Origin: Haloferax sulfurifontis ATCC BAA-897
GTDB taxonomy: Archaea; Halobacteriota; Halobacteria; Halobacteriales; Haloferacaceae
Length of the DNA: 64,000 nucleotides
Reading direction: 5' to 3'
NCBI RefSeq assembly: GCF_000337835.1
Contig: NZ_AOLM01000029.1
Location: 1-64,000, forward strand
Positions within the stretch are counted from its first letter, which is position 1. The number at the start of each line of letters is the position of its first letter. Positions 7,521-61,831 of this stretch are shown here, in pieces. The notes below the pieces were generated by a model. It did not search any database, was not told where the DNA came from, and saw nothing but the letters and a program-made list of their open reading frames with translations. A program made the position numbers and the translations under genes.

Positions 7521-7691
7521 ATTGTGTTCATTAACTTTGTTCACTAAACTCTAGGTTGCTCCGCAGACCGTTGCAATCATGCATGAGCATAGTCTCACCC
7601 AGCCATGGCGATCATTGAGTTCGTTCATCTAATGTGTTCAGTCTATTTGTTCATTGTGTACATTCATTGATTAACTCAATGAATGAATGTA
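7521..7691. repeat. Iteron-like repeats upstream of parA (candidate centromere/operator)
   Basis: An AT-rich region holds repeated TGTTCA(T/C/G)T-type words at 7525, 7539, 7635 and 7648. It also has an imperfect inverted repeat, TACATTCATTGA (7659-7670) against TCAATGAATGAATGTA (7676-7691). Direct and inverted repeats just upstream of parA are the usual position of partition sites (parS/parC) and of autoregulatory operators. The role is inferred. Confidence 0.5.
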
Positions 7692-7754
7692 TCTGTTGAA
7701 CGCAATGAGTGCATGCACAGAAGATTCAAGGTGATGGTTCATCATGAACACAGT

Positions 7755-16454: not shown

Positions 16455-17711
16455 CTAGTCTAACGTACCGTTCTTTTTCGCGAGTTCACGGATGCCTTCT
16501 AGATCACCAAACTCACTCTCCAGCGCGTCCAACGCCGACGACAACGAGACGTCCAAATCGTACTCGTTGTAGTTACCTCGACCGCCACTCGAGTCAACCA
16601 ACTGCAACACACCATGGAGGTTCAGATCCGACAAGTGGTCGTGTACGCGCCGACGCTTCAACGGCTCTTGCCCATTCTTCCGCGCAACCTTCTGGTACCG
16701 CCGATAGATTGCCTTTGTCCGTTCGGGCGTTTCTCCTCGAGCCGCTAGCTGACACACCGTCAATAACACATGCTGTCCATGTTGTGTCAACGAGTGCATA
16801 CCTTCAACGACTTGCTGGCGCTGAATCTGGAATTCTCCCTCGCGGACGTGTTCCTCTGTTACAAACGCATCACCACCAGCCCGCGCTTCTGACTCTGCAA
16901 TATCGACTGCCTTCCGCAGCAGTCGAAGTGCCTGCCGGGCCGATCCAGAGTCCCGTGCTGAAAACGCGGCACACAACGGAATCACATCGTCTTCCAACAC
17001 ATCATCATACAACGCAATCTCCGCTCGCTCACGGAGGATGTTTTGGAGTTCGCCAGCATCGTACGGCGGAAACAAGATCTCTTCCTCACAAAGTGTATCT
17101 TTGACTTTCGGGGACAGGTTATCGCGAAATTTGAAGTCGTTACTAATTCCGATGACGCCCAACTTCACGTCCAAGTCTAATTGTGAGCGTGCCCGAGGGA
17201 GTTCGTACAGAATATCATCATCTGATCCGATATTGTCGATCTCGTCGAGGACGACCAATACTGTCCCTCCGATATCTTCTAGGTCAGCATAGAGCTCACG
17301 AAACACGCGCTTTTGTTGATAGCCAGTCTCACTAATTGGCGCTCGTGAAGACGACACATTTGTTAGTGGGTGATTTGGCTTTCGAATTTCGTTCACGAGG
17401 TTCACCGCAACCTGATACGACGTGTTGCAGCCAGTACAGTTCAGTTCGATAATATTCACGTCAACGTCGTCGTACTGGTCAGCCGATTCCTGAAGCTCTT
17501 TGAGTAGGTCGTGCGTGGCCGCAGTCTTCCCGACACCTGTGACCCCATACAGAAACACGTTGTTCGGCTGCCATCCTTGGATTACCGGCCGGAGAGCTGC
17601 CGCGTATTCGTCGAGTTCTGCGTCTCGTTCCTCAAGAGTCTCAGGCTGGTAGTCGTCTCGCAACACGTCGTTGTCTCGAATAATGAATGACTCCCGAGTG
17701 AACCGGCCCAT
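16455..17711 (-). CDS. orc1/cdc6: Orc1/Cdc6 replication initiator
   Basis: This 418-aa AAA+ origin-recognition protein binds its cognate repeats and loads the MCM helicase. NNVFLYGVTGVGKTAATHDLL is Walker A, and VLVVLDEIDNIGSDDDILYEL is Walker B with sensor. SARDSGSARQALRLLRKAVDIAE is the sensor 2 region. A C-terminal winged helix around RRVHDHLSDLNLHGVLQLVDSSG recognises DNA. The ATG at 17711 is chosen because MGRFTRESFIIRD is the usual start and a TTTTAT box lies 26-31 nt upstream at 17737-17742 (minus strand). The frame is open to 17828 but only through repeat DNA. Origin repeats on both sides make this the replication module. Confidence 0.95.
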   Translation of the reverse strand: MGRFTRESFIIRDNDVLRDDYQPETLEERDAELDEYAAALRPVIQGWQPNNVFLYGVTGVGKTAATHDLLKELQESADQYDDVDVNIIELNCTGCNTSYQVAVNLVNEIRKPNHPLTNVSSSRAPISETGYQQKRVFRELYADLEDIGGTVLVVLDEIDNIGSDDDILYELPRARSQLDLDVKLGVIGISNDFKFRDNLSPKVKDTLCEEEILFPPYDAGELQNILRERAEIALYDDVLEDDVIPLCAAFSARDSGSARQALRLLRKAVDIAESEARAGGDAFVTEEHVREGEFQIQRQQVVEGMHSLTQHGQHVLLTVCQLAARGETPERTKAIYRRYQKVARKNGQEPLKRRRVHDHLSDLNLHGVLQLVDSSGGRGNYNEYDLDVSLSSALDALESEFGDLEGIRELAKKNGTLD

Positions 17712-17744
17712 AGATTGGACGATGTTGCTATATGTGATAAAACC

Positions 17745-18215
17745 ACGGGTGCCAGTATGACCAATAACCACACCCCTGTTGCCAGTAACGCCAATATATC
17801 GGGTGTTTATAAAAGACACTCTCTCCACTATTGCCAGTATTCCCTCGTAGATGAGGACTGGAGTTCAAGACGAGGTGACTAACAGGGTAATCGAACTATA
17901 TATACAGTTGTACTTTACTAATTCTTTTCCAGTACGGGTTTGGTTTTACCACTATTGATATAAATCTATCGTATAGATACTGTTGGCGGGAGTACACCCA
18001 GGTTCGTTCGAGTGCTTTTACTGGCAAAAGTGGTGTGTGTGTGTTATTTAAACGAGGCGAATACTGGCAGTACTGGCAACGGGGGTTCTCTGGGAACGAA
18101 CTTCCCCCACGAATCTACCCCCCAATCAGAAGTCCCCACGTTTGCACCAGCTTTACTGGCAATAGTGGACTGGTTATTGGCAGTACTGGCAACACCGGTA
18201 CCTCAATCAGCTAAC
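17745..18215. repeat. Origin repeats upstream of orc1/cdc6, with AT-rich segment
   Basis: Many copies of TACTGGCAA or its complement occur, for example near 17751, 17782, 17830, 18019, 18060, 18070, 18155 and 18185. The copies near 18070 and 18190 carry the CGGGGGT or CACCGG extension. An AT-rich stretch at about 17890-17990, with runs such as ACTATATATACAG, is a plausible DNA-unwinding element. Together with the repeats at 16277-16430 this makes a two-sided origin. Confidence 0.75.
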
Positions 18216-20306: not shown

Positions 20307-20318
20307 AAATATATAATA
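20307..20318 (+). promoter_or_regulatory. TATA box of the conjugation-type operon
   Basis: AAATATATAATA lies 20-31 nt upstream of the ATG at 20338, the expected distance for a leaderless transcript starting at the leader ORF. Confidence 0.6.
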
Positions 20319-20337
20319 TTCCGGAAATCTGGTTGAC

Positions 20338-20385
20338 ATGTACGCACCGCAAGACAATCGGTGCGGAACGATACCGAACACATGA
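20338..20385 (+). CDS. Possible 15-aa leader peptide
   Basis: The first ATG after the TATA box opens a 15-codon frame, MYAPQDNRCGTIPNT. Its TGA overlaps the ATG of the next gene (ATGA at 20382-20385). It would be the first translated frame of the mRNA and could couple or control translation of the operon. It could also be an accidental short frame. Confidence 0.35.
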   Translation: MYAPQDNRCGTIPNT

Positions 20386-20630
20386 TCTCCCGCTCAGTCA
20401 CCGTCGAAGACATCGATGAGTTGTTCCTCAGGTGGAACGACCATCTCAACGCATCGGCCCTCTATCGGCAAGCCCTCCGCGACGAGATGCAACTTCGCGA
20501 CGTTGAGCCGCACGAACTCCGCGCACAACTCTCCGAAGCCCGAGAGTTGGGCTACTCGCTTGATGAGATTGCAACCATGACGAGTCGCTACGCCGACCTC
20601 CAAGCGCTCGTGTACGACCACACCGAGTGA
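20382..20630 (+). CDS. Small helical protein, first full gene of the conjugation operon
   Basis: This 82-aa soluble helical protein (MISRSVTVEDIDELFLRW to YADLQALVYDHTE) is not recognised. Two helical blocks, residues 8-45 and 48-80, are charged and could form a coiled coil. The ATG at 20382 is preferred to a GTG at 20361 because it overlaps the leader frame. Four bases separate it from the pilin-like gene. It could be a regulator or substrate-recognition protein of the secretion machine, by position only. Confidence 0.55.
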   Translation: MISRSVTVEDIDELFLRWNDHLNASALYRQALRDEMQLRDVEPHELRAQLSEARELGYSLDEIATMTSRYADLQALVYDHTE

Positions 20631-20634
20631 CCTC

Positions 20635-21048
20635 ATGTCTGAGTCACACTCCCCTACTGACGCTCGCTCCGCCGGCCAGCGACAGCCCTCCCGATCCATC
20701 CTCCGACACGTCGCGATCGGTGGTGTCCTGTTCGCACTCGTTGCCGTCCAGCCAGTTGCAGCACAAGATAGCGTGGTCTGCAGCGCTGAGAAGTTGCCGG
20801 GGATGGTCGAGGGCTTCTTCCAGATCACGACGACGCTCGGCTTCATTGGGTTAGCAGTCATCTGGCAGGCCGACTCCCTCGCTGAGATCTTCACCGCCAG
20901 CCCTGAACAGAAAAAGCGACTCAAAGTCCACAAGCGCGCGGCACTCAAATCCGCCCTCATCTTGGCGGTGCTCGGCCCGCTGTACACCGTTGTGGCGTCG
21001 ATTATGGGCCTCCCACTCGGTGACTGCGTGAACCTCGCTCCCTGGTAA
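20635..21048 (+). CDS. VirB2/pilin-like small membrane protein
   Basis: This 137-aa protein has an N-terminal hydrophobic segment ending in an Ala-x-Ala-like site (VLFALVAVQPVAAQDS, about residues 32-46). Two further transmembrane segments follow (FFQITTTLGFIGLAVIWQA and ALILAVLGPLYTVVASIMG), separated by a basic loop (EQKKRLKVHKRA). Signal plus two transmembrane helices is the architecture of TrbC/VirB2-like major pilins. There are two cysteines outside the membrane. The assignment rests on topology and position at the head of the VirB4-containing operon, not on recognised similarity. Confidence 0.55.
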   Translation: MSESHSPTDARSAGQRQPSRSILRHVAIGGVLFALVAVQPVAAQDSVVCSAEKLPGMVEGFFQITTTLGFIGLAVIWQADSLAEIFTASPEQKKRLKVHKRAALKSALILAVLGPLYTVVASIMGLPLGDCVNLAPW

Positions 21049-21072
21049 GCGCACCGCCGACTCTGCCCTCCC

Positions 21073-22809
21073 ATGGATCACCGAGTGCCCTCCGTACTGG
21101 TAGCCGCCCTGCTCGTGTTGAGTTCCATTATCGGCCTCGCCACGGCACAGCCCCCGAGACCAGGGACTGAGACAAACGGCCTCACGGAAAACGAGTCGGC
21201 AACGCTCTGGTCTCGTGATAGCGACCGCTACGTCAGCCAACAAGACTACCAGCAGCAGTACGGCGACGAGCGAACGGCACTCCACCAACTCGCCAACGGA
21301 ACTGACATCACGTTCACGCGGCCGCCGGGGACGGCCGCGACGTGGACGCGCAACGACTTCGCGGATCTCGACGCCGGCGGGCCCGACACGTCGACGTACC
21401 CGCCCCATGCGTCACTCGAAGATGGGACGTTCATCGACGATGCGCACGCGACAATCTTCGCGGTCACGCCATCGACGCGTGGCCATCTCGACGCAGGTGA
21501 GACGCCGCTCTATATCGCCCCCAATGGGACGGTTCGCGGCCTCGTCGACTACCGTGTTCGTGTTCCAACCGGGAACGAAACGGGCAATCGGACCGTCGAT
21601 TGGACGCTTGTCTCTCACGAGATTGAGAACACCCGTCTGAAAATCGATGGTATCCCGGTTGCCTCGACTGCAGGCACTCACACGCCAGAATTACAGTATC
21701 ACACCACTCACTCGTGGAGCGCGAACCTCACGCTCGAAGCGAACATCTCAGTCCGGCTCAAGAAGACCGTCGAGACAACGGTTGGTGGCGAATCTAAGAC
21801 GACAGTCAACTACCGGACGGAAACACGAACCGTCTCGGATACACTCGATGCCGAGATTTACGACCTCGCAGCGTACCCCTACTACGCGCAGTATCCGAAC
21901 GGGGAGACTGGCGTCGCGATTTTCCAGTCCCGGCCGTGGCAGGGCTATACGCTCACCGATGATGCGTCCGCTCGCGTGCGTGGTGTGTGGCGGTTCTACA
22001 CGGCTCGCGACACGAACTGGGACAGACTCGTTACGTCCACCAGCACGTCGACGACCACGGCACAGTCGGATGCGATTCCCGTCCGAGTTCACGCGTACCC
22101 CTCGCAGATCGGGCCGCGAGCGGAGCCCGTTCGCGATGGGCCGGATATCATCGATACGTGGGGGGCTGACCGGGCGTCGCCTCGCCGGACAATTGGCGAG
22201 AACGTGACTGTCGAGGTCGTCAACGAGTCGTACACGCCGACCTATGGTCTGGCCATCCGTGCGAAGACCGTCGACCGGGAGGCGCTTCGAGTCGGCGGGA
22301 TCGTTCGCGGGGTGAATGCCACAATTGTCGACCCCCAAGTCGGGTCAGAGCGACAGCTTCGAGAGAGTAACCTCTCTGTCGAGCTCGTTTCGCAGACGAC
22401 GTCGAACGCGACCCTCCAAGTCGAGTTGCGCGATAACCAGACGGGCGCGCCAATCGCATCGAATGGGAGTGACCGACAGTACCCGATTGGCGGCTCGGCA
22501 CACAGCGGCTACATCACCGTGGGTGACCAGCGCGTTGAGACCAACGAGAGTGGCGTCGCAATCGTCACGCTGGACGAGCCGGGGATCTACACGGTCCGCT
22601 ACCACCCCGGCACGTGGCTTGGCCACGACCCCGCGTATGTGGGCGATACGGCCTCGGTTCGCTGGCATCCACTCGGGACTCTCGAGGGGTGGGTTGCGTT
22701 CGTATTCGAGGTCGGCTGGCAGGCGATTCCGTTCGTCGTGACGTTCTACGCCGGTCGCCGACTTCTCCGCATGTTTGGACCGACAGAGAGCTACTACCGA
22801 AACCAATGA
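21073..22809 (+). CDS. Large exported surface glycoprotein, membrane-anchored
   Basis: This 578-aa protein has a signal peptide (VLVAALLVLSSIIGLATAQ, about residues 8-26), a long extracellular beta-rich region rich in N-x-(S/T) sequons, and one C-terminal transmembrane segment (WVAFVFEVGWQAIPFVVTFYAG). A short cytoplasmic tail ends it. It is not recognised by family. In the operon it may form the surface-exposed part of the mating or secretion apparatus. The stop overlaps the lipoprotein start (ATGA), so translation is coupled. Confidence 0.7.
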   Translation: MDHRVPSVLVAALLVLSSIIGLATAQPPRPGTETNGLTENESATLWSRDSDRYVSQQDYQQQYGDERTALHQLANGTDITFTRPPGTAATWTRNDFADLDAGGPDTSTYPPHASLEDGTFIDDAHATIFAVTPSTRGHLDAGETPLYIAPNGTVRGLVDYRVRVPTGNETGNRTVDWTLVSHEIENTRLKIDGIPVASTAGTHTPELQYHTTHSWSANLTLEANISVRLKKTVETTVGGESKTTVNYRTETRTVSDTLDAEIYDLAAYPYYAQYPNGETGVAIFQSRPWQGYTLTDDASARVRGVWRFYTARDTNWDRLVTSTSTSTTTAQSDAIPVRVHAYPSQIGPRAEPVRDGPDIIDTWGADRASPRRTIGENVTVEVVNESYTPTYGLAIRAKTVDREALRVGGIVRGVNATIVDPQVGSERQLRESNLSVELVSQTTSNATLQVELRDNQTGAPIASNGSDRQYPIGGSAHSGYITVGDQRVETNESGVAIVTLDEPGIYTVRYHPGTWLGHDPAYVGDTASVRWHPLGTLEGWVAFVFEVGWQAIPFVVTFYAGRRLLRMFGPTESYYRNQ

Positions 22810-23651
22810 TTCCAACCGATTCACCGATTGGTAGACGTACCGTCCTTCGAACACTCGGCGGGGCCGCACTCGCCAGCGTTGCCGGCTGTCTCGATAGTAG
22901 CCGTAACTCGGAACCGACGACGTCCGACCAGACGTCGGCGACGACCGAGCGTGCTGGCCCGCTTTCACTCATCGCTGTCGAGGGCCAAGCCGTCGTCGTT
23001 GAGGTTGATACTGACGCACCCGTCGAACAGGTAAACCTCATTCAGCCGAATGGGGAACTGTTCGGGAAGCGTGGGCTTGCCGCCGGCGCACGACAGGTTT
23101 CGTTCGAAATCGGGACTGCCTACGAGCCCGGTGAGTACCGTGTCGTCGCACTAGATGGTGACGAAACTGTTGCCGAGGGTTCTCTCGAGATTAGCCCTCA
23201 GATTGAGATTCAGGACGTTGGGCTGTTTCGAAATGTACCGGATAAGCCGTGGGACGAGGTCTACGGTGAAAGTCCGACTGATGCAAAAAAGAACGGTGAG
23301 GCATTCGTCACGGTCAAAAACAGAGGGAGCGGACCGAATGCAATCGTTGAACTCCACTTTGCTGGTGACGTTCCTAATCCAATCGAAAACCCACGTGGGA
23401 ACGGAATCTATGAAGAAAGTAGCGTCGTCGTCCCTGCAGGAGAAACAGTTGATATTTTCAGTAGCTCATTCCCATTCGGTTCAGCCATTGGAGAGGATGG
23501 GATGGGCTGTTCGACTGATGGTAATCGTGGCCAGTTTACTGTTGTCGTAGACACTCGAGTCGCAGCTCGGCAGGTCACAAAAGAGTACAACGTGGCATAT
23601 ACTGACGCCGAAGAGATGCAAAACTGCGAGATTACGATTAGCGAGGCATAG
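22806..23651 (+). CDS. Tat-exported lipoprotein
   Basis: This 281-aa protein has a twin-arginine signal, GRRTVLRTLGGAALASVAGC, whose cysteine (about residue 27) is in a haloarchaeal lipobox and would be lipidated. A Ser/Thr-rich linker and Ig-like beta-rich extracellular domains follow. The ATG at 22806 overlaps the upstream stop; longer in-frame versions start inside the preceding gene and are rejected. It is probably a structural component of the cell-surface complex. From about 23150 the codon use is noticeably more AT-rich than in the preceding gene. Confidence 0.8.
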   Translation: MIPTDSPIGRRTVLRTLGGAALASVAGCLDSSRNSEPTTSDQTSATTERAGPLSLIAVEGQAVVVEVDTDAPVEQVNLIQPNGELFGKRGLAAGARQVSFEIGTAYEPGEYRVVALDGDETVAEGSLEISPQIEIQDVGLFRNVPDKPWDEVYGESPTDAKKNGEAFVTVKNRGSGPNAIVELHFAGDVPNPIENPRGNGIYEESSVVVPAGETVDIFSSSFPFGSAIGEDGMGCSTDGNRGQFTVVVDTRVAARQVTKEYNVAYTDAEEMQNCEITISEA

Positions 23652-23653
23652 CG

Positions 23654-24715
23654 ATGGTTGATCTCATTGACGTCGTATTAGAGGGTTTCAAAGACATTGT
23701 TGGTTGGATTATTGGTCTCTTTATGGACGCCCTGTCAACGGGGTACAACACTCTTTCCGAGGAGATGTTTGGGACCCCGACACCCGAGACAGATGGTGTA
23801 TTCATTTTTGGAGAACCAGCCAGTGAGCCGTGGTTGACTATTCGAGATGCACTCGTTGGTGGTGAGATAATGCTCATTGCATTGTTATTGCTCGTCGTCT
23901 GTGTTCAAGCACGGCACGCTATCCGAATATTCAATGTTGGTAGTGCCTACGAGGCCAAAAAAACGAAGAAAACTGCATGGGTTGGTGCATCTTTGATTGT
24001 TGTCTGGTATTGGGTTGGTGTCCTTTCGCTTTACCTTATTGACGGGTTTGCTCTCGCCTTACTCCCAACTATGGATTCGATTCGGAATGCTATGTTAGGT
24101 TTCCTTGGTGTAACGATATCTAACCCTGCTCTCTCTCTGGTGTTTGCGCTAATTGGTGGGCTCTCTATGTGGGCTCTAGAAGCACTATTCTACATCCGGA
24201 AGATCCTGGTCTATGTCTATCTCTACGGGATGCCGGTTGCAATCGCACTCGGATACGGAAATGTGCCTGTCGTCTCTGACGTTGCAATGGGCTTCTGCAA
24301 GAGGTTCGTCCCTCTCGCTGTCCTCCCTTTGCCTGCTGCAGTCGTTTTCAAGGGTTATGACCTGATCTACGGTGGCGGAACAATGGTCCCACAGACCGAC
24401 TTCCTGAAGTTCTTAGTTGCTACCTCGCTCCCGCTGGTTGCTCTCTACATTACATGGAAGACGTTCACGTACGCGACGCCGCTCACCGCGAAGGTGATCG
24501 GCGGTGCAACGCGAGGCGCAGCCCTCGTCGGCGGCGTCGCAGCCGGCGCGTATGTCGGCGGCGCTGGCGTTGCAACGACCGCCGCCCGCTGGGGGCCGAA
24601 AGCCGCCGCCGGCCAAGCACTCGCCCAGCGAGCAGCCGCACAGCGTGACTCGACTGATGACAGCGACGGACTGCCGTCGTACCGGCGGACCGAAAACGAG
24701 CCCCGCACCCGCTAA
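23654..24715 (+). CDS. Polytopic channel protein (VirB6/TrbL-like)
   Basis: This 353-aa protein has an amphipathic N-terminus and about six or seven transmembrane segments between residues 70 and 275, including MLIALLLLVVCVQA, WVGASLIVVWYWVGVLSLYL and VAIALGYG. A glycine/alanine-rich, positively charged tail follows. The layout (large loop, a central membrane block, Ala/Gly-rich tail) is that of VirB6/TrbL inner-membrane channel proteins. It lies directly before the VirB4-related genes, with 2-bp spacing on both sides. Assignment is by topology and context. Confidence 0.6.
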   Translation: MVDLIDVVLEGFKDIVGWIIGLFMDALSTGYNTLSEEMFGTPTPETDGVFIFGEPASEPWLTIRDALVGGEIMLIALLLLVVCVQARHAIRIFNVGSAYEAKKTKKTAWVGASLIVVWYWVGVLSLYLIDGFALALLPTMDSIRNAMLGFLGVTISNPALSLVFALIGGLSMWALEALFYIRKILVYVYLYGMPVAIALGYGNVPVVSDVAMGFCKRFVPLAVLPLPAAVVFKGYDLIYGGGTMVPQTDFLKFLVATSLPLVALYITWKTFTYATPLTAKVIGGATRGAALVGGVAAGAYVGGAGVATTAARWGPKAAAGQALAQRAAAQRDSTDDSDGLPSYRRTENEPRTR

Positions 24716-24717
24716 CC

Positions 24718-25839
24718 ATGTCGACAGACCAAGACACAGCCGCACGGCGCATCATGGACCAGTTCGGCGAAGCGAGTCGCATTCCCTACCTCAACATCGA
24801 AGAGGGCGACGTCGGTGTTCTTATCGCCCTCCCAATCTGTGGGTTGCTCCTCGCCGGCCTCACCGGCGTTGAATCACTCGCTGTCCCGTTTATCGCAAGC
24901 GGCCTCGGTATTGGCGCGGCCATCGTCTACGTCGCGCCTGACCATCTGAACGCGTGGACCTGGACGAAAGACGTCTATCGCTACGCCAAACGGCCCCGGA
25001 TTACGCTGAGTGCGCCAGAGCACCCTGACGACCAGACGAACGAAACCGTGCGCAACGAGGGTGGACTCGCGAACTACACGCCGTTTACTCCCGACGAGCG
25101 AACCCAAGACCTCACGAATATCGAGCGAGCGTGGCCCGGCGCCGGCGCGATTCAACGGACTGACGGCGCGATGGAGGCGTTCATCGAGATCGATCCGGGG
25201 AACATGGACTTCGCGATGGCCGACGACTGGGCGCAACTCCAGGACGCAGGCGCCGAGTTCGCCAACAAAGAACTCGACTCGAAGCTCAAATTCCACGCGA
25301 CAACCCGGTCATTCCCGGTCGAACAGATCACCGAGACAATCGAGGAGCGACTCACCGACGAAGACGTCACACAGAACCCGATCTTCCGGGAACTCCTCGA
25401 AGAGTATCGGGAGACGCGGCCCAAAGAGATGCGCGACCGCGGCATTCAGCAGGTTCGATACTACATCGGCGTGGAAGTCTCGCCACTCGAAGTCTACGAC
25501 CGATACCGTGACGAGGGAACGCCGGCTGAAAAGCTGACGCAGTTCCCCGTGATTGGCATCCTGTTCAACCCGTTTGTCACGCGGCGCGCGGACCTCTCTG
25601 ACGTGGAACGCCGCGCCCAGATGTTCGAGAAACTGGACGACCGTATTGCAGATGTCCGTTCCGAGTTCATCCAGCAGGCGTCCGGCTGGTCTGCCCACCG
25701 ACTCAGCACGGTCGAGTTGTTCGTCCTGAACATGGACTTCTGGAACGGCGAAGAACACGATTTCGAGACCGAAGCAGACGTAATTCGTGAACAGCCAATT
25801 CTCGGCCGGTCACGCCGCGAGGAGGCGTTCGATGCGTAA
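24718..25839 (+). CDS. Membrane-anchored VirB3/VirB4-N-like protein
   Basis: This 373-aa protein has two N-terminal transmembrane segments (VLIALPICGLLLAGLTGVE and VPFIASGLGIGAAIVYVAP, about residues 32-75), a PrgI/VirB3-like arrangement. A soluble alpha/beta domain follows, with IERAWPGAGAIQRTDGAMEAFIEI near its start and FVTRRADLSDVERRAQMF later. The second part resembles the N-terminal domain of VirB4-type ATPases, whose ATPase is encoded by the next gene. The last 8 bp overlap that gene, which suggests a VirB3-VirB4 module split or rearranged between two polypeptides. Confidence 0.6.
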   Translation: MSTDQDTAARRIMDQFGEASRIPYLNIEEGDVGVLIALPICGLLLAGLTGVESLAVPFIASGLGIGAAIVYVAPDHLNAWTWTKDVYRYAKRPRITLSAPEHPDDQTNETVRNEGGLANYTPFTPDERTQDLTNIERAWPGAGAIQRTDGAMEAFIEIDPGNMDFAMADDWAQLQDAGAEFANKELDSKLKFHATTRSFPVEQITETIEERLTDEDVTQNPIFRELLEEYRETRPKEMRDRGIQQVRYYIGVEVSPLEVYDRYRDEGTPAEKLTQFPVIGILFNPFVTRRADLSDVERRAQMFEKLDDRIADVRSEFIQQASGWSAHRLSTVELFVLNMDFWNGEEHDFETEADVIREQPILGRSRREEAFDA

Positions 25840-28036
25840 CCTCCCGTTGCAGGCGAGTCGTGATATTCTCACCCAACTCTCCCAGTGGGCCCGACAGCCA
25901 ACCTCCCCCGAAGGTGCCGCACTCTATCTGGGGACCATCATGCTCCTCGGCGTCGGCGGAACAGCTCTCTGGCAACGGTACCGCACCGACGATGAGCCGG
26001 AAGTCGACTTCTCGGACGTCCTCGACGAGGAGACGCTTGAAGCGGGCGACGCAGAAGGCCAGCTCCTCGACGAGATTTCGGAGTTACACAAGACGGCAAC
26101 GGCCCCAGCAGCGGTTGAATGGGAGACGCGGGCTGCCCGTGTCGGTGAACAGTGGACGTCGACGCTGTACATCGCTGACTACGCCGACTACCCGAACGAC
26201 GGCTATCTGAGTGACCTCTTCGAATTGACCGACGTTGAATTCGACCTCACGGCGCATATCACGCCGAAGAACCAGCAACGCGCGCGGAACGAACTGCAAG
26301 ATATCGCGGACGACCTGCAGGTTGACGCCGATTTAGAACAGAGCGTCCGAAGCGAGTATCTCCAAGAGCGGGCGAACGAAGCGGCGGCGACGTACAAGGC
26401 CGTCGAGAGTGGCGCGAGTGTGTTCGACCAAGGGCTGTTCGTCACCGTCCGCGCCGACGACAAGGACGACCTTCGCGACGCAGTCAGAGCAGTCAAAAGC
26501 GCGCTCCGTGACGAACCGGCGAATCTCACGCCGAAGACGGCTATCTGCCGGCAGGACCTCGCGCTCCAGTCCGCTGCGCCAATTGGCGACAACGTCTTTG
26601 GTCGGGAGTCGATTGCCCTCGGCGGTGCTGTGGGCTCACTTCTAGCGTCGCCACACAACGCGACGATTCTCGAAGAAGGCGGCGTCGAGTTCGGGATTCA
26701 CAAGGACAACCAGAGTCCGGTCGTCATCGACCCGTTTGCCCGTGATAACGGCTATGCGATGTTCACCGTGGGGGATACCGGCTCTGGCAAATCGTTCGGT
26801 GCGAAAGAGAACTTCATTCGGTCGATTGAACAGAGCAAGGACCGCATCGGAATCATTCTCGAACCGCTCAACAACTGGGCGGGCGTCTCCGAAGCGCTCG
26901 ATGCCAAGCGAATTACCGTCGGCGGGACGCTCGGGCTGAACCCGCTCGAAATCCGCCAGACGCCCGAACACGTCCAACGGGCAATGGGTGAAGACGCGAG
27001 TCCGTTCAACGAGAAGCTCGACGACGCGATGAGCTTCCTGACGAATTTCTTCGCCCTCCGTGGCATCTCACTCGGTGACCGCCGAACGACACTCGAACTC
27101 GGACTCAGACAGGCCTACGAGCGTCATGGCATTACCGATGATATCACGACGCACGGCAACCCGAGCCCGACGATTCGAGAAATGTTAGACGTCTTCGAAG
27201 AGATGGTTGACGACCCCGAATCGTTCGTCGTTCGGTCAGATGCAGAAGCCGAGAAGCTTAGCAACGATGCGACGTGGTTGATCGACCAACTGCGGCCCTT
27301 CGAGGAAGCAGGGCGCTACGCGAACCTCGGGAAAGAGTCGGAGTTCGACATCCGGGATGAGAAAGTCATCTACCTCGACCTCGCCCAGCAAGAAGGTAGC
27401 GTCGACAGCAGTACGGCCCTGACGATGCAGTTGCTCATCTCGCTCGTCTACGAGCGGGCGAAAGAGACGGACAAGGAAGTCGTGTTCGTTATCGACGAAG
27501 CGCGGTACATCATGCAGGACGCCGCGAGTCTGGCATTCCTCGAAACGGTGTTCCGACACCATCGCCACCACGACCTCTCGATTCGGCTGGTCACCCAGAC
27601 CGTCGACGAGTTCTTCGAGCACGCTGAATCCGAAGCCATCCTTGACCAGTGTGCAGTCAAGCAGTTCCATCGGCTGGATGGGATGGACGAAGAGTGGGCC
27701 GACGAGTTCGGCCTGAATCACGCCCAGATGCGGTATGTGCAGGACGCGGTTCCCGGGAACGAGGACGCTGGCTTTTCAGAAGCTTTGGTCGGCGTCGACG
27801 GCGAGTGGCGTGGTATCAGAGTCGAAGCGATGCCCAAGGAAAAGCAGGTCATCGACTTCGACCCGACCGAGCAGCGGCGGGTGTCGCTGCCCGGGGCTGA
27901 TGAGACAGCGGTCTCCGCGGATACTGAGGCCTTTCGGACGGAGTTAGCGCAGCACGCAACTAGTGAGTCACAGGACATGCAGACTGATTCAACAGCAGCA
28001 GACAACGGCCAGCTTGGAGGAACCGACGATGCCTGA
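25832..28036 (+). CDS. VirB4/TraC-type secretion ATPase
   Basis: This 734-aa conjugation ATPase energises pilus or substrate transfer. One N-terminal transmembrane segment (LYLGTIMLLGVGGTALWQ) is followed by an N-terminal domain. Then come the P-loop FTVGDTGSGKSFGAKEN (about residues 310-325) and VVFVIDEARYIMQD as Walker B (about 550). DLSIRLVTQTVDEFFEH is the sensor region near the C-terminus. The ATG at 25832 has a GGAGG site 7 nt upstream and overlaps the preceding gene by 8 bp; a start at 25787 is less likely. Length and motif order are typical of archaeal VirB4 homologues. Confidence 0.88.
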   Translation: MRNLPLQASRDILTQLSQWARQPTSPEGAALYLGTIMLLGVGGTALWQRYRTDDEPEVDFSDVLDEETLEAGDAEGQLLDEISELHKTATAPAAVEWETRAARVGEQWTSTLYIADYADYPNDGYLSDLFELTDVEFDLTAHITPKNQQRARNELQDIADDLQVDADLEQSVRSEYLQERANEAAATYKAVESGASVFDQGLFVTVRADDKDDLRDAVRAVKSALRDEPANLTPKTAICRQDLALQSAAPIGDNVFGRESIALGGAVGSLLASPHNATILEEGGVEFGIHKDNQSPVVIDPFARDNGYAMFTVGDTGSGKSFGAKENFIRSIEQSKDRIGIILEPLNNWAGVSEALDAKRITVGGTLGLNPLEIRQTPEHVQRAMGEDASPFNEKLDDAMSFLTNFFALRGISLGDRRTTLELGLRQAYERHGITDDITTHGNPSPTIREMLDVFEEMVDDPESFVVRSDAEAEKLSNDATWLIDQLRPFEEAGRYANLGKESEFDIRDEKVIYLDLAQQEGSVDSSTALTMQLLISLVYERAKETDKEVVFVIDEARYIMQDAASLAFLETVFRHHRHHDLSIRLVTQTVDEFFEHAESEAILDQCAVKQFHRLDGMDEEWADEFGLNHAQMRYVQDAVPGNEDAGFSEALVGVDGEWRGIRVEAMPKEKQVIDFDPTEQRRVSLPGADETAVSADTEAFRTELAQHATSESQDMQTDSTAADNGQLGGTDDA

Positions 28037-31000
28037 GCGTGAGTATCTTCGCGTGACGCCGACATCGGAGGCACTCACAGCGCGTGGCATCCCGCAGACA
28101 CTTGAGAGTCTCCACAAACTGACCCCTGATAGCTCGGGCCTGCGGTCGAAACTCAACCCGTTTACATCCGCGACCCCACCGCGCTTCGAGTTCCTTGCGC
28201 TTAGTACGGGACAAGATGCGCCGGTTGAGTTCTACTATGGAGCCGACGACTATCTCGGGACACTCGAAGAGCGGCTTCGGTCGATTTATCCGAAGACGTT
28301 CGACATCGAGCGTGTCGAGGTGGACGTCGCGTCGAAGCTGATTCATCCGGTTGCATTGTCCCACGAGGAGTTCGTCGAGCGCTACCAGCAGGGTGATCTG
28401 CAGTATGAGTTCACCGACGACGAGCAGTACTCGACTGCAGATGCCGAGGCGGACGCGACGCCAGACGGTGGTGCAATGGAGGGCACCAAGTCTGAGGGTT
28501 CACCGACGGACGCTGATGACGTGGGTGGAAGAACGGCGGACGGACTGGTGTCGGTTGGAGAGATAGTTGTCGAACTCGAAACGACTGACTCCCTCGCTGA
28601 CGAGGTTTCGCCCACGTCGGTCGAGAAACCGACAGTAGCCGCAGACGGGATGATTCTCGCTCGCCCTGCGGTTGATTCCGTCTCACCACGGGGCGTGCGG
28701 TGGTGTGGGTCGGCAGTTCGGAAGCAGGATTGGATGTCGTCGTTGACTCCGCTGACGGCGACGCCTGACGAGAGCACGCTGCCGGCGGTCGACGAACCGG
28801 GAGCTGTGCTTGCGTCGCTGGTCGACCACCTGAATGATGCACGCGAACCGCTTGCGTTCCAAGTCGTGTTTCAGCGCCGGGAGAGTTGGCAGGCGGATGC
28901 GGAACTCCGCAAAGAGGACTTGAATGATGGCCGGGACACGCTCTCGCAGAAAATCCTTGGCGACTTGCTTGACCCCGAACTGGAGTACGAACGTCGGACT
29001 CGCGACGAGTTGAGTGATATCGTGGTTAAGCGGCTTGATGCGATTGATGCGGTCAATCCCAAACGCTCGTACACGACGAACATCCGGGCAATTGGCGTGC
29101 CAACGAGCGAGGCCGGTCGCGACGCCCTTGATGACCGCCTGTCGTCACTCGCGCCGGTCTTTGACCCACTTGATGGCCCGTTCTACGAGATCGAAGCGAC
29201 GCGACTTCGAGATCGTGGCTTCCGACAATCGAAGAAAGAACAACACGCGCGAGCAGCGCTCCAGCGACTCCTCTCGCGGGAGGTAACGACTGGGCGCGGC
29301 AAGACGCGGCCGGAGTTAGTTCTCTGTGGGGCCGAGCTTGCGAACTTCATCTTGGTTCCATCGTCGGACCAACTGACGGTCGAGGGGACGCGAGGGACGC
29401 GTGCTGAACAGCAGAGTCGTGATCCGCTTCCGTGGCCCAACCCGGACTTAGTCCAGCAGTTTCGGGAGGGAATGGCCATCGGGTATGCACTCGATGAGAA
29501 CGGTTCGCCGCAACAGCGTCCGATTCGGATTCCGCCGAAGCTCCTGACGACACACTACGGTCGGTTTGCCTCGACTGGAAGCGGGAAGTCGAAAGCAATC
29601 ATCAACGATGCGCTGTCGCTCCGTGAGACGACCGGCGGGCCCGTCGTTATCGTTGACCCGAAGGGCGACGGAATGTGTGCCAACTACCTTCGGAGTCATT
29701 ACGAGCGCTTCAACGGGCTGGACGATGTCTACCAGTTCCGCGTGCCCGAGACGATACCCGCATTCTCCTTTTTCGATATTCGGCCGGCACTCGAAGCCGG
29801 ACGGAATCGGGCGGACGCGATTCAGGACAAGGTCGACCACTTCCACGATATCATGCGGATGATCATGGGTCGCGAGCAGTACGGGCAAGCGTTCGTCGCC
29901 AACGAGATCCTCAGCTACCTCATCAAGGCGCTGTTCGACGAGGAGTACGGAAGTGACGTCTTTGGGTTAGACGACCTCTTTGCGGCCGCACTCGAGATGC
30001 AGCGAGAGCGAACTGTGCCACCGGTTTCGGCGGACAACCGAAGCGTCGAGGAGTCGCTTACACGGCACTTCGCGAAGGACGACCACCAGTTCCAGGTATC
30101 GATGGACGCTGTCGGGAACCGCCTCGACAAACTCAGAGAGGATGCCCACCTGCGACGAATCTTCAGCCACGTTCCGGAACAGAACGAGACCGGAGAGTAC
30201 GTTGACAACCGATTCGACTTCCGCGGGTTCCTGGACGAAGATGCCACGATTCTGTTCGACTTGGGCGACCTCCGCCCGGAGGCACAGCGAGCGATCACCT
30301 TGCTCTTGCTGAGTAACCTTTGGGATGCGGTGCAGGTGCGTCGACGTGACGGGAACACGGACTACGAGAACCTCACCAACCTCATCATCGAGGAGGCGGC
30401 CCCCGTCGCAGCAACGAAACTCGTCTCCGAGCAGTTGCTTCCACAGGGCCGGTCGTTCGGCTTGAGTATGGGACTGGTAATGCAGTTCCCCGGGCAGGTT
30501 CGAAATCGGAACGAACGCGCCTACGACGAGGTTCTCAACAACATCAAGACGAAGCTCATTGGAAACATCTCCATCGAGCGCGACCTCGCAGAGTCGCTGG
30601 CCCACGAAGACTTGAGCCCGACCGACCTTCGGAATCGGATCAACACGCTCCCCAGCGGGGAGTGGATCGCACAACTGCCGAGTCCGTCATTCGGGGAGAC
30701 GGGACCAGCCCCGTTCTCGGTGATGCCGCTTCCGATAGCAGCCGGCCATCCAGAGAGCGACGAGCCGCTCTCTGTCGAACAGGAAGACCACTTCGAGACC
30801 GTGGCCCTCCCACGGCTTTCGGAGCGAACACAGGCCCGATATGGGCTTGCTGAGACCACCGAATCGGAGACAGCCGAAGACGAGGGCTGGGGAAGTAGAC
30901 TGAACGACGAAGGTTCGACATCCGTAGACTCGACTAGCCCTACGGACTCGGCGCAGTCGTCGTTCATCGGACAGGCAACTAGTGGTTCGGCGGCCGCTGA

Positions 31001-31859
31001 AGAGGAGGAAGAGAAAAACGCGGACACCACCTCGCTATTTGGAGATTCCGGGGCAACTGAGCCGGAAGAACCAGTCAGTGAAGAAGAGGAGACTGCCGTT
31101 GAGGAGACTGGGTCGTCACCAGTACAGGCAGGTGGTGTAACCGTTCCAGATGACGAACTCCAGCGGCGCGAGCTCACGCACGACGATGTCCGATTCCTAA
31201 CCCGCATCCTCGACGTGATGAATGGTGACACACCAAATCACAGACTCTTGGATTCAATGAGTTCGCTCAAGAGCGACTTTGAGGATTTGGATGTGCAACG
31301 GCTCGTCGAGCAAGACCTGCTGGAGGAAGGACGAGCGTGTGGTCGGAAGTACTACACAGTCCTCCCGGCAGGGCGTGAACTCCTCGGTCAGAAGCTCAAA
31401 GTCGGTCCTGGACAGGGGGACATCGGTGAGAAGACACCGCACAAGGTCGGTGTGAAGCTGCTCGAACTGTGGTTAGACTCCCGCGACGACGTCGCACAGG
31501 TCGAGCCGTACTACGAGTACGATGAAGAGACGGTGTTCGACGTTGTCGGTCTCGATGCTGACGGGGAACTCGTGTGGGTCGGTGAAGCCGAACTCGCGAG
31601 TAACAACAAACACGCGCCGGTCGACGACTACGACAAGCAGAGCGCGGTGGACGCGAACGCTGTCTGGGCGTTCAACAGACGCGAAACGGCCGTCGAGGTG
31701 CTGGACCGCCTCGCAGAAGCCGACCGGATAGAAAGCAGTGTGAGCGGGCGTGCAGCCCGCTCGTTCTCGGACATTCGAGAGGCCGTTGAATCGTTCGATT
31801 CACCTGGGCTGACGACGATTCAGAGCTTCAACAAACTTGACGAGGAGTTCAACACATGA
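28029..31859 (+). CDS. VirD4/TraG-like coupling ATPase with C-terminal nuclease-like domain
   Basis: This very large (1276-aa) protein lacks obvious membrane segments. Residues about 490-950 form the ATPase: FASTGSGKSKAIINDAL is Walker A, VVIVDPKGDG follows, LTNLIIEEAAP is Walker B-like, and LSMGLVMQFPGQV is the sensor strand. A Glu/Ser-rich linker (about 970-1060) precedes a C-terminal domain. There, RFLTRILDVMNG and a small winged helix are followed by VFDVVGLDADGELVWVGEAEL, which resembles a PD-(D/E)xK core. Start ATG 28029 has a GGAGG 8 nt upstream. It probably feeds DNA into the VirB4-containing channel, and the nuclease-like tail might process it. Confidence 0.78.
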   Translation: MPEREYLRVTPTSEALTARGIPQTLESLHKLTPDSSGLRSKLNPFTSATPPRFEFLALSTGQDAPVEFYYGADDYLGTLEERLRSIYPKTFDIERVEVDVASKLIHPVALSHEEFVERYQQGDLQYEFTDDEQYSTADAEADATPDGGAMEGTKSEGSPTDADDVGGRTADGLVSVGEIVVELETTDSLADEVSPTSVEKPTVAADGMILARPAVDSVSPRGVRWCGSAVRKQDWMSSLTPLTATPDESTLPAVDEPGAVLASLVDHLNDAREPLAFQVVFQRRESWQADAELRKEDLNDGRDTLSQKILGDLLDPELEYERRTRDELSDIVVKRLDAIDAVNPKRSYTTNIRAIGVPTSEAGRDALDDRLSSLAPVFDPLDGPFYEIEATRLRDRGFRQSKKEQHARAALQRLLSREVTTGRGKTRPELVLCGAELANFILVPSSDQLTVEGTRGTRAEQQSRDPLPWPNPDLVQQFREGMAIGYALDENGSPQQRPIRIPPKLLTTHYGRFASTGSGKSKAIINDALSLRETTGGPVVIVDPKGDGMCANYLRSHYERFNGLDDVYQFRVPETIPAFSFFDIRPALEAGRNRADAIQDKVDHFHDIMRMIMGREQYGQAFVANEILSYLIKALFDEEYGSDVFGLDDLFAAALEMQRERTVPPVSADNRSVEESLTRHFAKDDHQFQVSMDAVGNRLDKLREDAHLRRIFSHVPEQNETGEYVDNRFDFRGFLDEDATILFDLGDLRPEAQRAITLLLLSNLWDAVQVRRRDGNTDYENLTNLIIEEAAPVAATKLVSEQLLPQGRSFGLSMGLVMQFPGQVRNRNERAYDEVLNNIKTKLIGNISIERDLAESLAHEDLSPTDLRNRINTLPSGEWIAQLPSPSFGETGPAPFSVMPLPIAAGHPESDEPLSVEQEDHFETVALPRLSERTQARYGLAETTESETAEDEGWGSRLNDEGSTSVDSTSPTDSAQSSFIGQATSGSAAAEEEEEKNADTTSLFGDSGATEPEEPVSEEEETAVEETGSSPVQAGGVTVPDDELQRRELTHDDVRFLTRILDVMNGDTPNHRLLDSMSSLKSDFEDLDVQRLVEQDLLEEGRACGRKYYTVLPAGRELLGQKLKVGPGQGDIGEKTPHKVGVKLLELWLDSRDDVAQVEPYYEYDEETVFDVVGLDADGELVWVGEAELASNNKHAPVDDYDKQSAVDANAVWAFNRRETAVEVLDRLAEADRIESSVSGRAARSFSDIREAVESFDSPGLTTIQSFNKLDEEFNT

Positions 31860-32740
31860 GTTGGCGCCACGCAACCCGTGAGGAGATCTACAGGTACTAC
31901 GCGGAGGAGTTCCCCTCGTACGTCGACGAACTCCCGTCGTTCATCACCGCGAAGGGGCCGAAACAGTACGCACTCGCGTTTCAGGAGCCCCACCCGGTAC
32001 GGAAAGACGGAGTCCCAGACAAGGACTTCATCCGTCGAGATACGTGGCAGACGAACGTCTCAGGCGACCGAACCACGGCAGCGTTCCACGACTTCGACGA
32101 CGTCCTCGAGTTCATCTGCCATCCTGCGCGGAACGATCCACTTGGGCGGAGCGACTTCGCACTCGCCGATCCTGATCTGCTCGACAAACCAGACCCGCGT
32201 CCTGATGCGGTCTACTACGCCCTCGATCACTGGGAACGACCGTGGGTGCTCCTCATCGATATCGACGCGAAAACGATAGCCCGAGAGCGAGCAGCACGAG
32301 CGGTCTCGGATGAGGATGCTACGGAAGACAGCGAGGAACTGCTCGATTCCGCGGGTATTCTCGAGGCAGACCCGGCAGGCTACCCGTATGCCTTCGAGGA
32401 TATCGAACGGGCCATCGAGTACGGTTTTGAGGTGCGGGACATCTTCGAGGACGACTTCAACGCCGAGGAGACGATGGTAGTGTACAGCGGCCAGGGCGTT
32501 CACGTCTACCTCCTTGACAGCGATCCAGCCCATCGGTACGACGCCAAGAGTCGAGAAGTGCTGAACGACCTTCTGCAAGACACCTACGAGATTCCCATCG
32601 ACCCAGTGGTTACCGCCGACCGTCGCCGGGTCGCCCGGCTCCCCTACTCGTTGCACGCTGACGTCTGTAGTATCGTCACGCCCATCGAGAGCCCGAACTT
32701 CGACGTTCGGTCTGCGACACCGGAGGTGCTCAGAGAATGA
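31856..32740 (+). CDS. Archaeo-eukaryotic primase small-subunit-like protein (PriS-like)
   Basis: This 294-aa protein has the archaeo-eukaryotic primase motifs. WVLLIDIDAK (about residues 129-138) carries the catalytic D-x-D. MVVYSGQGVHVYL carries the S-G-x-G-x-H nucleotide-binding motif. IPIDPVVTADRRRVARLPYSLH carries the third acidic residue and the conserved arginines. It overlaps both neighbours by 4 bp. It would synthesise primers on transferred single strands. It is much shorter and more divergent than a chromosomal PriS, as expected of a plasmid-borne form. Confidence 0.85.
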   Translation: MSWRHATREEIYRYYAEEFPSYVDELPSFITAKGPKQYALAFQEPHPVRKDGVPDKDFIRRDTWQTNVSGDRTTAAFHDFDDVLEFICHPARNDPLGRSDFALADPDLLDKPDPRPDAVYYALDHWERPWVLLIDIDAKTIARERAARAVSDEDATEDSEELLDSAGILEADPAGYPYAFEDIERAIEYGFEVRDIFEDDFNAEETMVVYSGQGVHVYLLDSDPAHRYDAKSREVLNDLLQDTYEIPIDPVVTADRRRVARLPYSLHADVCSIVTPIESPNFDVRSATPEVLRE

Positions 32741-34248
32741 CTCAGTCAACGCCTGTTGAGGACGAGCGGGCTGCCTATCGCGTTGCGACGCTTCCGCCCG
32801 AATATGGGACGATGCGGATCAACCAACTGTTCACCCGGGGCTACAATCGCTACATCGTCGACGGCGAAGAGCAACCAGGAGATCTACTGACCGATCTCGA
32901 GCGATTCGGGACGGCGGCGTTCAAAGAAGACGTCAGGGCCAACGCCGCAGAGGAACCCTTCGTTGACGAGCCCGGAACGCTCGCCGTTCTCGCGACGTTG
33001 AGTGCTATCTGCGTCAAGGCACACCCGAAGTTCGAACACGCCCCACCGCGAACGGTGCAGGTCCTCTACGATATTCGCGAGCTCTACGTCAACAATCTCG
33101 CCTCCCTCCTTCGAGAATTCGGTGATGGGAGTCTCCAACAGGATATCGCAGAGGTGCTGTACGCGAAAGACCCCGGAGAGGACGGACCACACCCCGGTCG
33201 CGTTTGTACGGGGATCAAAGAGATGCCCGAGTTCGGTGACGGATTGTATCTCGAAATCCCGATGGCCGCAGCATCGAGGAAGTGCCTTGTTCACGCCGAA
33301 ACTGAGACCGGAGAAGCCGGGGAACTGCTCACTCGCGTCGAGAACAACTGCCTCTATGTGCCCGTCGGTGATTTCGACACGAAGTATCGCGAGTACGCCA
33401 GACGTGCGTTCAAGAAGCTCCTGCGGGTCCAGGAGGAGAACCTCTCTGAAGACCAGCTGACGTGGCTAACGACGAATGAGTCGGCCATCACAGAGCGTAT
33501 CGACCACTTCATCGAGACGGGACACCACGAACGGATCTGGCGAGATTGGAACCCCGGAGAACGGACCATCCGTGTACTCCGGGATGCGATTCGAGACGCT
33601 CCAGACGAGGTCGTCTCACTGGGAGAGTTCCACTCGGCGAAAGAACTGTTTGAAGCAGTAGAGGCGTACGATCCGGAAGCGGGCTGGAAGCGAGACGTGT
33701 GTAATCGCATCTCGAGTCCTCGGAGTCTCGGGAACCTTCTCGCATCCCAGCGGGACCACCGGAGTCTGACCATTCGAGAGCACGGAAGTACGAACCACTA
33801 TCGGATTCAGGAGTCTTCGCGTGGCGTCCAGCCCCTCGACGTCGAGGCAATCGAAGACCTGTTCGAGCTTCCCTGTATGGCGAATATGGCCGATCGACTC
33901 CACGAGAAGAAGCCAGTCCGAAAGGACCTGTACAACTTCGCCCGGATGGTGATGTGGCTTCCCCAGTACCAGGATAGTGACCTCGAGACGATTGTCGCAG
34001 ACCTCAAGGATGTCTTCTCGCGGTGGCCCTGGTACGACGAACAGGTCACCGATTACCAGATTCGCTACGAGTTCTCGAACACCATTGGGGGCGACACCCC
34101 GCTTCCGATGAACTGTGACAACGACGATATGCAACGGTACTGCATCGGCCAGGAGCAGTGCCCCTACTCGATCTGGGGGTGCCTTCCCTTCCCGGATGAG
34201 ATGTACGACCAACTGGATGGGGCAGAATCTACCGCAGAAGAGTTCTAG
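32737..34248 (+). CDS. Primase large-subunit-like protein (PriL-like) with Fe-S domain
   Basis: This 503-aa protein has a C-terminal 130 residues resembling the PriL iron-sulphur domain. FELPCMANMADRL holds the first cysteine. YQIRYEFSNTIGGDTPLPMNC and RYCIGQEQCPYSIWGC hold three or four more in the order expected for a 4Fe-4S cluster. The middle region is helical. It is the last gene of the operon and is coupled to the PriS-like gene by an ATGA overlap, which supports a two-subunit primase. The N-terminal 300 residues have no motif I can name. Confidence 0.75.
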   Translation: MTQSTPVEDERAAYRVATLPPEYGTMRINQLFTRGYNRYIVDGEEQPGDLLTDLERFGTAAFKEDVRANAAEEPFVDEPGTLAVLATLSAICVKAHPKFEHAPPRTVQVLYDIRELYVNNLASLLREFGDGSLQQDIAEVLYAKDPGEDGPHPGRVCTGIKEMPEFGDGLYLEIPMAAASRKCLVHAETETGEAGELLTRVENNCLYVPVGDFDTKYREYARRAFKKLLRVQEENLSEDQLTWLTTNESAITERIDHFIETGHHERIWRDWNPGERTIRVLRDAIRDAPDEVVSLGEFHSAKELFEAVEAYDPEAGWKRDVCNRISSPRSLGNLLASQRDHRSLTIREHGSTNHYRIQESSRGVQPLDVEAIEDLFELPCMANMADRLHEKKPVRKDLYNFARMVMWLPQYQDSDLETIVADLKDVFSRWPWYDEQVTDYQIRYEFSNTIGGDTPLPMNCDNDDMQRYCIGQEQCPYSIWGCLPFPDEMYDQLDGAESTAEEF

Positions 34249-61400: not shown

Positions 61401-61831
61401 ATGTCTTCTGAACACGAGCAACAGCAATCACGACTCCCTAGCGAGCACACTGAACAACCGAGCGACGAACCGTGGGCAGATCTCGAACTGACGCTCCCGC
61501 ACGGCAGAAGTCGACTGACATCGTCTCATTCGTCGAGTGCACACTCGTCGAACTCACCCACGAAGACGTCGGAGCCGAGTTCGTCTCGGTGAGCGTAGCG
61601 GGCGTGAAGCAGACACAGTTCATCGCCGTCGACGACGTCGGCCAGCGGTTCAAGAAGCGGTATTTCGACGAGCGTCTCGGCTGGCACGAAACGACAGTCA
61701 ACCGTGAAGCGGTTCGTGAGGAGTTGGTCAATCGACTCACACAGCGGTCGTCACTGGGCAGTGGTGTGGGTCAGCCTGGCGTCGTCGACGATCAAGACAA
61801 ATTCCAGGTGATGCCAGTTTCGGAGCTGTGA
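61401..61831 (+). pseudogene. Frameshifted small haloarchaeal protein
   Basis: Translation begins MSSEHEQQQSRLPSEHTEQP at the ATG at 61401 and runs to LELTLPHGR. Near 61508 one A is missing. Restoring it gives GRKSTDIVSFVECTLVELTH, then EDVGAEFVSVSVAGVKQTQF, DVGQRFKKRYFDERLGWHET and so on to a stop at 61831. A 143-aa protein of unknown family would result. Confidence 0.55.

Follow-up and report, generated by a model that had tools for sequence, protein, structure and literature searches.

TraC of RP4 and Sog of ColIb are bacterial conjugative primases. In MobA-RepB' of RSF1010 and the related MOBQ relaxases with a primase domain, a primase is likewise encoded with, or fused to, transfer proteins (PMC5862659, PMC12857230). 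The archaeal conjugative plasmids pNOB8 and pT33-3 encode VirB4 and VirD4-like ATPases and have no identified relaxase (PMC12857230); published accounts find no identifiable relaxase in archaeal conjugative plasmids and acknowledge that the way in which their DNA is prepared without one is still open (PMC12857230; PMC9905601). A 53-kb "possible DNA secretion system" region of Haloferax volcanii is a haloarchaeal mobile region with VirB4/VirD4 homologues (PMC2841640). In primases of mobile genetic elements, PriCT domains usually take the place of PriL, the latter being held nearly exclusive to chromosomal primases (PMC5862659). Here we describe a ten-gene operon (g1-g10) of Haloferax sulfurifontis ATCC BAA-897, found in bases 1-64000 (the window) of the 103,336-bp contig NZ_AOLM01000029.1 of a 3.8-Mb genome, which presents a PriS-PriL pair (g9 and g10) borne by a mobile genetic element. 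It is probably the transfer operon of a haloarchaeal conjugative-type plasmid, in which a channel module is joined to an exchangeable DNA-processing cassette that includes a dedicated primase. The channel module would comprise g1-g7 and the N-terminal part of the VirD4-like protein (g8), and the cassette, serving conjugative transfer, would comprise the C-half of g8, its tail and the primase. The latter would be a PriS-PriL heterodimer here, and in sister operons whose channel is almost identical an NrS-1-type PrimPol accompanied by a different VirD4 tail.

This reading draws on gene identities, operon structure, co-segregation and module exchange, as observed in the window and in a comparison set of 122 related loci. 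Of 391 haloarchaeal genomes sampled from the class, 103 contain the g10 family, in many cases with decayed fragments as well, and 263 contain VirB4 of the window type, many of these without g10. Type-A loci were found through g10; type-B loci are VirB4 matches lacking g10, and 60 such g10-less loci were examined. No primase was detected at nine of the 60, mostly since no adjacent intact VirD4 was found. Most of the 60 show the same operon order, followed after VirD4 by a gene of about 420 amino acids (aa) in the primase slot. This gene, labelled "hypothetical protein" in plasmid records, encodes an NrS-1-type PrimPol unrelated to PriS/PriL (PF22763, 1.3e-31; NrS-1 primase 6k9a in the PDB, 1.7e-52) with prim-pol and HBD domains, in which the DxD and SGxGxH motifs are invariant. 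A type-A VirD4 tail is combined with PriS/PriL at 55 loci and a type-B tail with PrimPol at 50; at two loci, one of them cut by a contig end, the type-B tail has no primase. The matching primase is therefore present downstream in 105 of the 107 loci with either VirD4 form, and no locus carries both PriS/PriL and PrimPol. The alternative primase and the tail swap, like the nuclease-like tail discussed below, lie outside the account given in the preliminary description of the window.

The trees reveal which part of the coupling protein the primase follows. On the VirB4 tree the primase type changes 10 times by parsimony (at least 8; shuffled mean 26.8), and for VirD4 residues 1-420 it needs six changes (at least four); for residues 540-930 it changes once, with a support of 100 and perfect segregation. 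Comparison of the window with three Haloferax type-B operons gives about 87-100% identity over VirD4 residues 1-420, except for a variable stretch at 121-180, followed beyond approximately residue 420 by an abrupt drop to 25-73% and then by noise in the tail. A distant type-A operon exhibits the opposite pattern of similarity, the reversal having a Fisher p of about 1e-78 or lower. The alignments place the Haloferax crossover inside virD4; the N-part of the protein follows the channel, and residues 540-930 and the tail follow the primase. From this reversal of affinity along VirD4 we deduce that the exchange unit is the C-half of the coupling protein together with its tail and the primase, and such a unit is hard to explain by a primase serving vegetative replication alone.

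Where copies of g10 that are full-length and reasonably close were examined, PriS and a VirD4-like gene stand directly upstream of them, and the 4-bp overlaps of virD4-priS-priL are retained in most loci. VirD4, PriS and PriL are adjacent despite a diverged VirB4 (25-31% identical) at L076, L078, L079, L083, L151, L152 and L154-L157, and at L147, where VirB4 is undetected, they are adjacent at 34, 42 and 31% identity, respectively. Because this adjacency outlasts the divergence of the channel, the primase travels with the coupling protein and not with the channel. The g10 family is found on 90 PLSDB plasmids, all 90 of which are typed as non-mobilizable by MOB-suite, as are 131 of 133 PrimPol plasmids. 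No g10/PriL was found in phage records.

The last two genes had been taken for primase subunits in the preliminary description, and the profiles bear this out, assigning g9 to PriS and g10 to PriL. The g9 protein matches TIGR00335 (9e-9), and its profile finds the archaeal PriS structure 1g71_A in the PDB (7.4e-9) with colinear segments; against PF01896 it scores 25.4 bits, below the cut-off of 26.8. Its motifs are D135/D137, SGQGxH (211-216), D249, R258, R261 and H267, and these catalytic motifs (DxD, SGxGxH, D...R..R...H) are invariant in 20 relatives, down to 42% identity. Judged by profile and motif, g9 appears to be a genuine PriS, and primer synthesis is predicted for it. The g10 protein belongs to the NCBI family NF038197 ("primase-associated protein", 850 bits) and has no Pfam match, PF04104 included. 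Because a direct PDB profile search with g10 gave no match, its identity was settled by profile-profile comparison and by motif. Using hhalign, the C-terminal domain (residues 379-477) aligns with archaeal PriL at 92.3% probability (P 5.5e-7) with the cysteines matched, the controls reaching at most 0.7%; the Fe-S cysteines noted earlier (C380, C460, C469 and C475) proved invariant in 29 sequences. The AlphaFold2 model of g10, with a predicted local distance difference test score (pLDDT) of 81, has a winged helix inserted at approximately residues 290-360. A Foldseek search with this model places about eight primase large-subunit chains, individually weak, in the top 50 PDB matches; the matches to the PriL N-domains 1zt2_B (TMt 0.48) and 2dla_C (TMt 0.47) are weak, with E of at least 0.26. 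We take g10 to be a genuine, very divergent PriL with an inserted winged helix. The host carries its own PriS and PriL as separate chromosomal genes elsewhere; by BLAST, g9 is weakly similar to the host PriS (E 2e-6) and g10 has no detectable similarity to the host PriL, which rules out a recent capture of the host genes.

The remainder of the operon is consistent with a transfer apparatus. As described previously, all ten open reading frames (ORFs) are present on the plus strand (20361-34248 of the window) and are tightly spaced: the widest gap measures 24 bp, most neighbours overlap or touch, and g8/g9 and g9/g10 overlap by 4 bp. The operon order recurs in dozens of haloarchaeal loci, and the 4-bp overlaps likewise in most copies, so that the arrangement is due neither to chance nor to an annotation artefact. 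The VirB6-like channel, VirB4 and VirD4-like ATPase that had been proposed were all recovered: g5 matches PF19590 (442 bits, 1.7e-132), g7 matches NF045975 (1.6e-36), NF045971 (2.5e-32) and TIGR00929 (8e-13), and g8 is VirD4/HerA-like, its match being weak alone and firmer via relatives. Members of the VirD4 family match PF10412 (TrwB_AAD_bind, 1.9e-7) and PF12696 (TraG-D_C, 2.5e-4), and 11 of 12 match PF01935. For g2, the suggested pilin-like protein, size and hydrophobicity (two segments) are compatible with that role, and no family or profile match was obtained. The g3 protein is conserved beyond Haloferax at approximately 61-70%. A candidate function for g6 is that of a VirB3-like protein plus the VirB4 N-domain; it matches a single 1341-aa ORF in L151, which overlaps the VirB4 match of that locus. 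The operon encodes a type IV secretion-like apparatus (VirB6, VirB4, VirD4-like). A second g2-g7 set, 58-81% identical to that of the operon, is located on contig C27 of the same genome (L087); VirD4 or a primase was looked for after its VirB4 and none was found, and we regard it as a decaying or rearranged element.

The TATA box reported at 20307 is seen as the TATA-like sequence AAATATATAAT, and relatives possess A/T-rich boxes at an equal distance. The inverted repeat that lies between this element and g1 has counterparts with similar half-sites in most relatives, whichever primase type they carry, and is a probable operator or, alternatively, possibly an origin of transfer (oriT) candidate. 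Translation of g1 and g7 probably begins at ATG (20382 and 25832) rather than at the upstream GTG. The contig is a haloarchaeal plasmid, a reading based on the presence of ParA and Orc1/Cdc6 genes; a terminal overlap indicating closure was looked for and not found. The coordinates of these features are collected in Table 1.

Table 1. Features of the operon and its contig; positions are those of the window
Feature	Position	Strand	Evidence or remark
ParA	7683-8630		same contig
Orc1/Cdc6	16455-17828		same contig
TATA-like promoter element of the operon (AAATATATAA)	20307..20316	+	sequence; equidistant A/T-rich boxes in relatives
Inverted repeat GCACCG-N9-CGGTGC between TATA box and g1	20344..20364	+	seen in the window
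g1: small conserved protein, no family	20382..20630	+	ORF opens at GTG 20361
g2: 137 aa, two hydrophobic segments, VirB2/pilin-like candidate	20635..21048	+	hydropathy; conserved in comparator operons
g3: 578 aa, secreted or surface protein	21073..22809	+	N-terminal hydrophobic segment
g4: lipoprotein of the twin-arginine translocation (Tat) type (RRTVLRTLGGAALASVAGC)	22806..23651	+	sequence; conserved
g5: VirB6/TrbL channel protein	23654..24715	+	PF19590; six hydrophobic segments
g6: 373 aa, two N-terminal transmembrane segments	24718..25839	+	
g7: VirB4 ATPase	25832..28036	+	ORF opens at GTG 25787
g8: VirD4-like coupling ATPase, 1276 aa	28029..31859	+	
g8 residues 540-930, C-part of ATPase	29646..30818	+	tracks primase type; one tree change, support 100
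g8 tail: predicted winged helix + PD-(D/E)XK-like domain	30981..31859	+	AlphaFold2, Foldseek, alignment
g9: PriS, primase catalytic subunit	31856..32740	+	profile and motifs
g10: PriL, primase large subunit (NF038197)	32737..34248	+	inserted winged helix at ~residues 290-360
PriL Fe-S cysteines C380, C460, C469, C475	33874..34161	+	invariant; aligned to archaeal PriL

The preliminary description recognised no relaxase in the window, and the same result was obtained when the search was widened to the whole genome with six families. PF03432, PF08751, PF03389, PF07514 and PF01076 gave no match at E<=0.1, and PF13814, the relaxase profile used for MOBC, gave none at E<=0.001; a scan of accessory ORFs on the contig also revealed no relaxase. 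A conventional relaxase, nearby or elsewhere in the genome, was therefore not found by this six-family search.

The last 290 residues of the type-A tail of g8 were modelled by AlphaFold2 with good confidence, at a pLDDT of 81.8 and a predicted template modelling score of 0.76, the first 50 or so residues being disordered. In the model a winged helix precedes an alpha-beta-beta-beta-alpha-beta domain, whose second strand bears D1171 and whose third bears E1186-x-E1188, K1203 lying in the next helix; these residues and D1200 are invariant in 27 tail sequences. Foldseek matches the tail to the PD-(D/E)XK proteins YaeQ, NucS/EndoMS, SfsA and a restriction-endonuclease-like protein, as well as to winged-helix proteins, with modest E-values, and a PDB profile search with the tail gave no match. 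Homology between the type-A and type-B tails was looked for and is not detectable. Tail B also possesses a conserved PD-x14-E-x-E, and D-x14-E-x-E is common to both tails.

In R388, the C-terminal tail of the coupling protein (TrwB) contacts and recruits the relaxosome, and the MOBC relaxase TraX consists of a winged helix and a PD-(D/E)XK fold (PMC12857230). In addition to the transfer function proposed above, the g8 tail might be the equivalent of a relaxase, its winged helix binding oriT and its PD-(D/E)XK-like domain nicking, in which case coupling protein and relaxase would be one polypeptide. We put this forward tentatively and consider it unlikely on balance. The predicted winged helix and alpha-beta-beta-beta-alpha-beta core with the invariant D1171, E1186, E1188 and K1203, the Foldseek matches to the four nuclease-fold proteins, the domain pair shared with TraX (PMC12857230) and the failure to find a relaxase elsewhere in the genome all argue for it. 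It is countered by the lack of a sequence match between the tail and PF13814, by nuclease-fold Foldseek E-values of at least 0.035, and by the presence of E-x-E instead of E-x-K, which may mean that catalysis has been lost; moreover, with tails A and B not detectably related, both would need a nicking function. It is doubtful, by the same token, that haloarchaeal conjugation does without a separate relaxase because nicking falls to the exchangeable tail of its coupling protein, which is passed on with the matching primase. If true, tail and primase would form a single swappable DNA-processing unit, and the "missing archaeal relaxase" would be solved.

For the operon as a whole we envisage that the coupling-protein tail would select and bind plasmid DNA and contact the primase, much like the TrwB tail with the R388 relaxosome. 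The ATPase would then feed single-stranded DNA to the VirB4/VirB6 channel, and the primase would start the complementary strand on that DNA in the donor, the recipient or both; more speculatively, the PriS/PriL-type tail may supply the missing nicking function. The preliminary description had weighed priming of transferred DNA against a role in plasmid replication, and the comparative data favour transfer, because the primase co-segregates with the C-half of the coupling protein and is swapped for another primase in the same slot. It is rather unlikely that vegetative plasmid replication is what these primases serve, their position in the operon being due to co-regulation or historical accident. 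ParA and Orc1/Cdc6 genes are indeed found on the contig, plasmid-borne archaeo-eukaryotic primases are usually replicative (PMC5862659), and the type-B PrimPol resembles phage replicative primases; yet the primase type tracks the coupling-protein C-half with one change in the tree, most loci keep the virD4-priS-priL overlaps of 4 bp, and the haloarchaeal host already has PriS and PriL. Quite improbable, in our judgement, is an apparatus for DNA import or for exchange associated with cell fusion, rather than a plasmid exporter, in which the primase would convert incoming single-stranded DNA. Such a function is suggested by Ced and Ted, which import DNA (PMC9905601), and by haloarchaeal integrated elements with VirB4 and VirD4 that carry the fusogen Fsx1 (PMC9259645). 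The present operon, however, resides on mobile plasmids, and its duplicates and remnants are frequent, as a self-spreading element would show, and no fusogen was noticed in the window, none having been searched for.

Several points weigh against a transfer operon with an exchangeable cassette. Transfer is so far a putative function of all these plasmids, and the primase could serve vegetative replication, since the element has Orc1/Cdc6. The Foldseek matches of PriL are individually weak (best E 0.16), as are those of the tail, the best of which (2.4e-3) is a kinase with a winged helix, and the tail carries E-x-E, not E-x-K. L148, L149 and L150 have divergent PriL homologues (approximately 32% identity) with no detectable PriS or VirD4, and L125, the sole mismatch between tail and primase, has a rearranged gene order in which an A-like tail occurs together with PrimPol.

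With respect to the layout of these exceptional loci, one of the PriL-like genes of L148-L150 stands near an Orc1/Cdc6 gene. In L125 (3850-8963) the PrimPol directly follows VirB4, and a VirD4 of a third type, with the A-like tail, is inverted. A CRISPR-like tandem array with a period of about 72, composed of a conserved unit of approximately 37 nucleotides ending in ...GAAACCCAGAACGGGATTGAAAC and of variable spacers, occupies positions 50-442 of the window. The stretch from about 34300 to 61400 is GC-richer and contains ATP-binding cassette transporter-like genes, a P-type ATPase, a beta-lactamase-fold protein and a major facilitator superfamily protein. It appears to be cargo, because the small post-primase gene (homologue at 61472-61831), usually located about 75 bp to 6 kb after the primase, is displaced here by 27 kb. 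This gene specifies a conserved protein of about 146 aa and unknown family, and it follows the primase at 62 of the 107 primase loci (37/56 PriS/PriL operons and 25/51 PrimPol operons). An OB-fold/RPA-like protein, recalling the single-stranded DNA-binding proteins of conjugative plasmids, is encoded downstream of operons of both types in 39 of the 107 primase loci (e.g., L037, 16967-17866). Exonuclease VII genes (xseA, xseB) are situated directly upstream of the transfer operon in L101 (65-1302) and NC_018225.1 (86893-88130), and elements with this arrangement include the PriS/PriL plasmid pJ7-1; the presence of a single-stranded DNA nuclease adjoining a DNA-transfer operon is notable.

That the primase is firmly tied to the coupling protein throughout the haloarchaea implies a single-stranded DNA intermediate; for the processing function that is missing, the swappable tail offers a concrete candidate that can be mutated. 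The literature searched, which covers few subscription journals, contains no description of a primase/VirD4 association. Conjugative primases are already known in bacteria; that literature reports no PriS-PriL pair that lies in a transfer operon and is swappable with PrimPol along with half of the coupling protein, and a possible larger novelty lies in the g8 tail. For the 53-kb region of H. volcanii no primase association is described (PMC2841640).

Unlike pNOB8 and pT33-3, the window possesses VirB6, and its primase co-segregates with the coupling protein. The MOBC relaxases (TraX of pAD1, MobC of CloDF13) have a winged helix and a PD-(D/E)XK domain, as reported for TraX (PMC12857230), whereas in g8 this pair is predicted at the C-terminus of a coupling protein, with no sequence match and an E-x-E motif. 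The type-B primase has the prim-pol and HBD domains in common with the PrimPol of phage NrS-1, and differs from it in being about 420 aa long, with a coiled-coil-like end and no helicase domain detected, and in its location in a type IV secretion operon. With the archaeal and eukaryotic PriS-PriL, g9 and g10 share the PriS catalytic motifs and the four-cysteine PriL Fe-S domain; they differ from the replicative pair in being very divergent, in the winged helix inserted in PriL and in residing in a plasmid transfer operon. The conjugative primases of bacteria are single-chain proteins, relaxase-linked or effector-like, whereas the primase of the window, for which no relaxase was found, is a two-subunit PriS-PriL (or, in the sister operons, a PrimPol) linked to the coupling protein. 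The inheritance and repeated exchange of the coupling protein as one unit with its own primase suggests that priming is built into archaeal DNA transfer, and offers a lead on the missing initiating enzyme.

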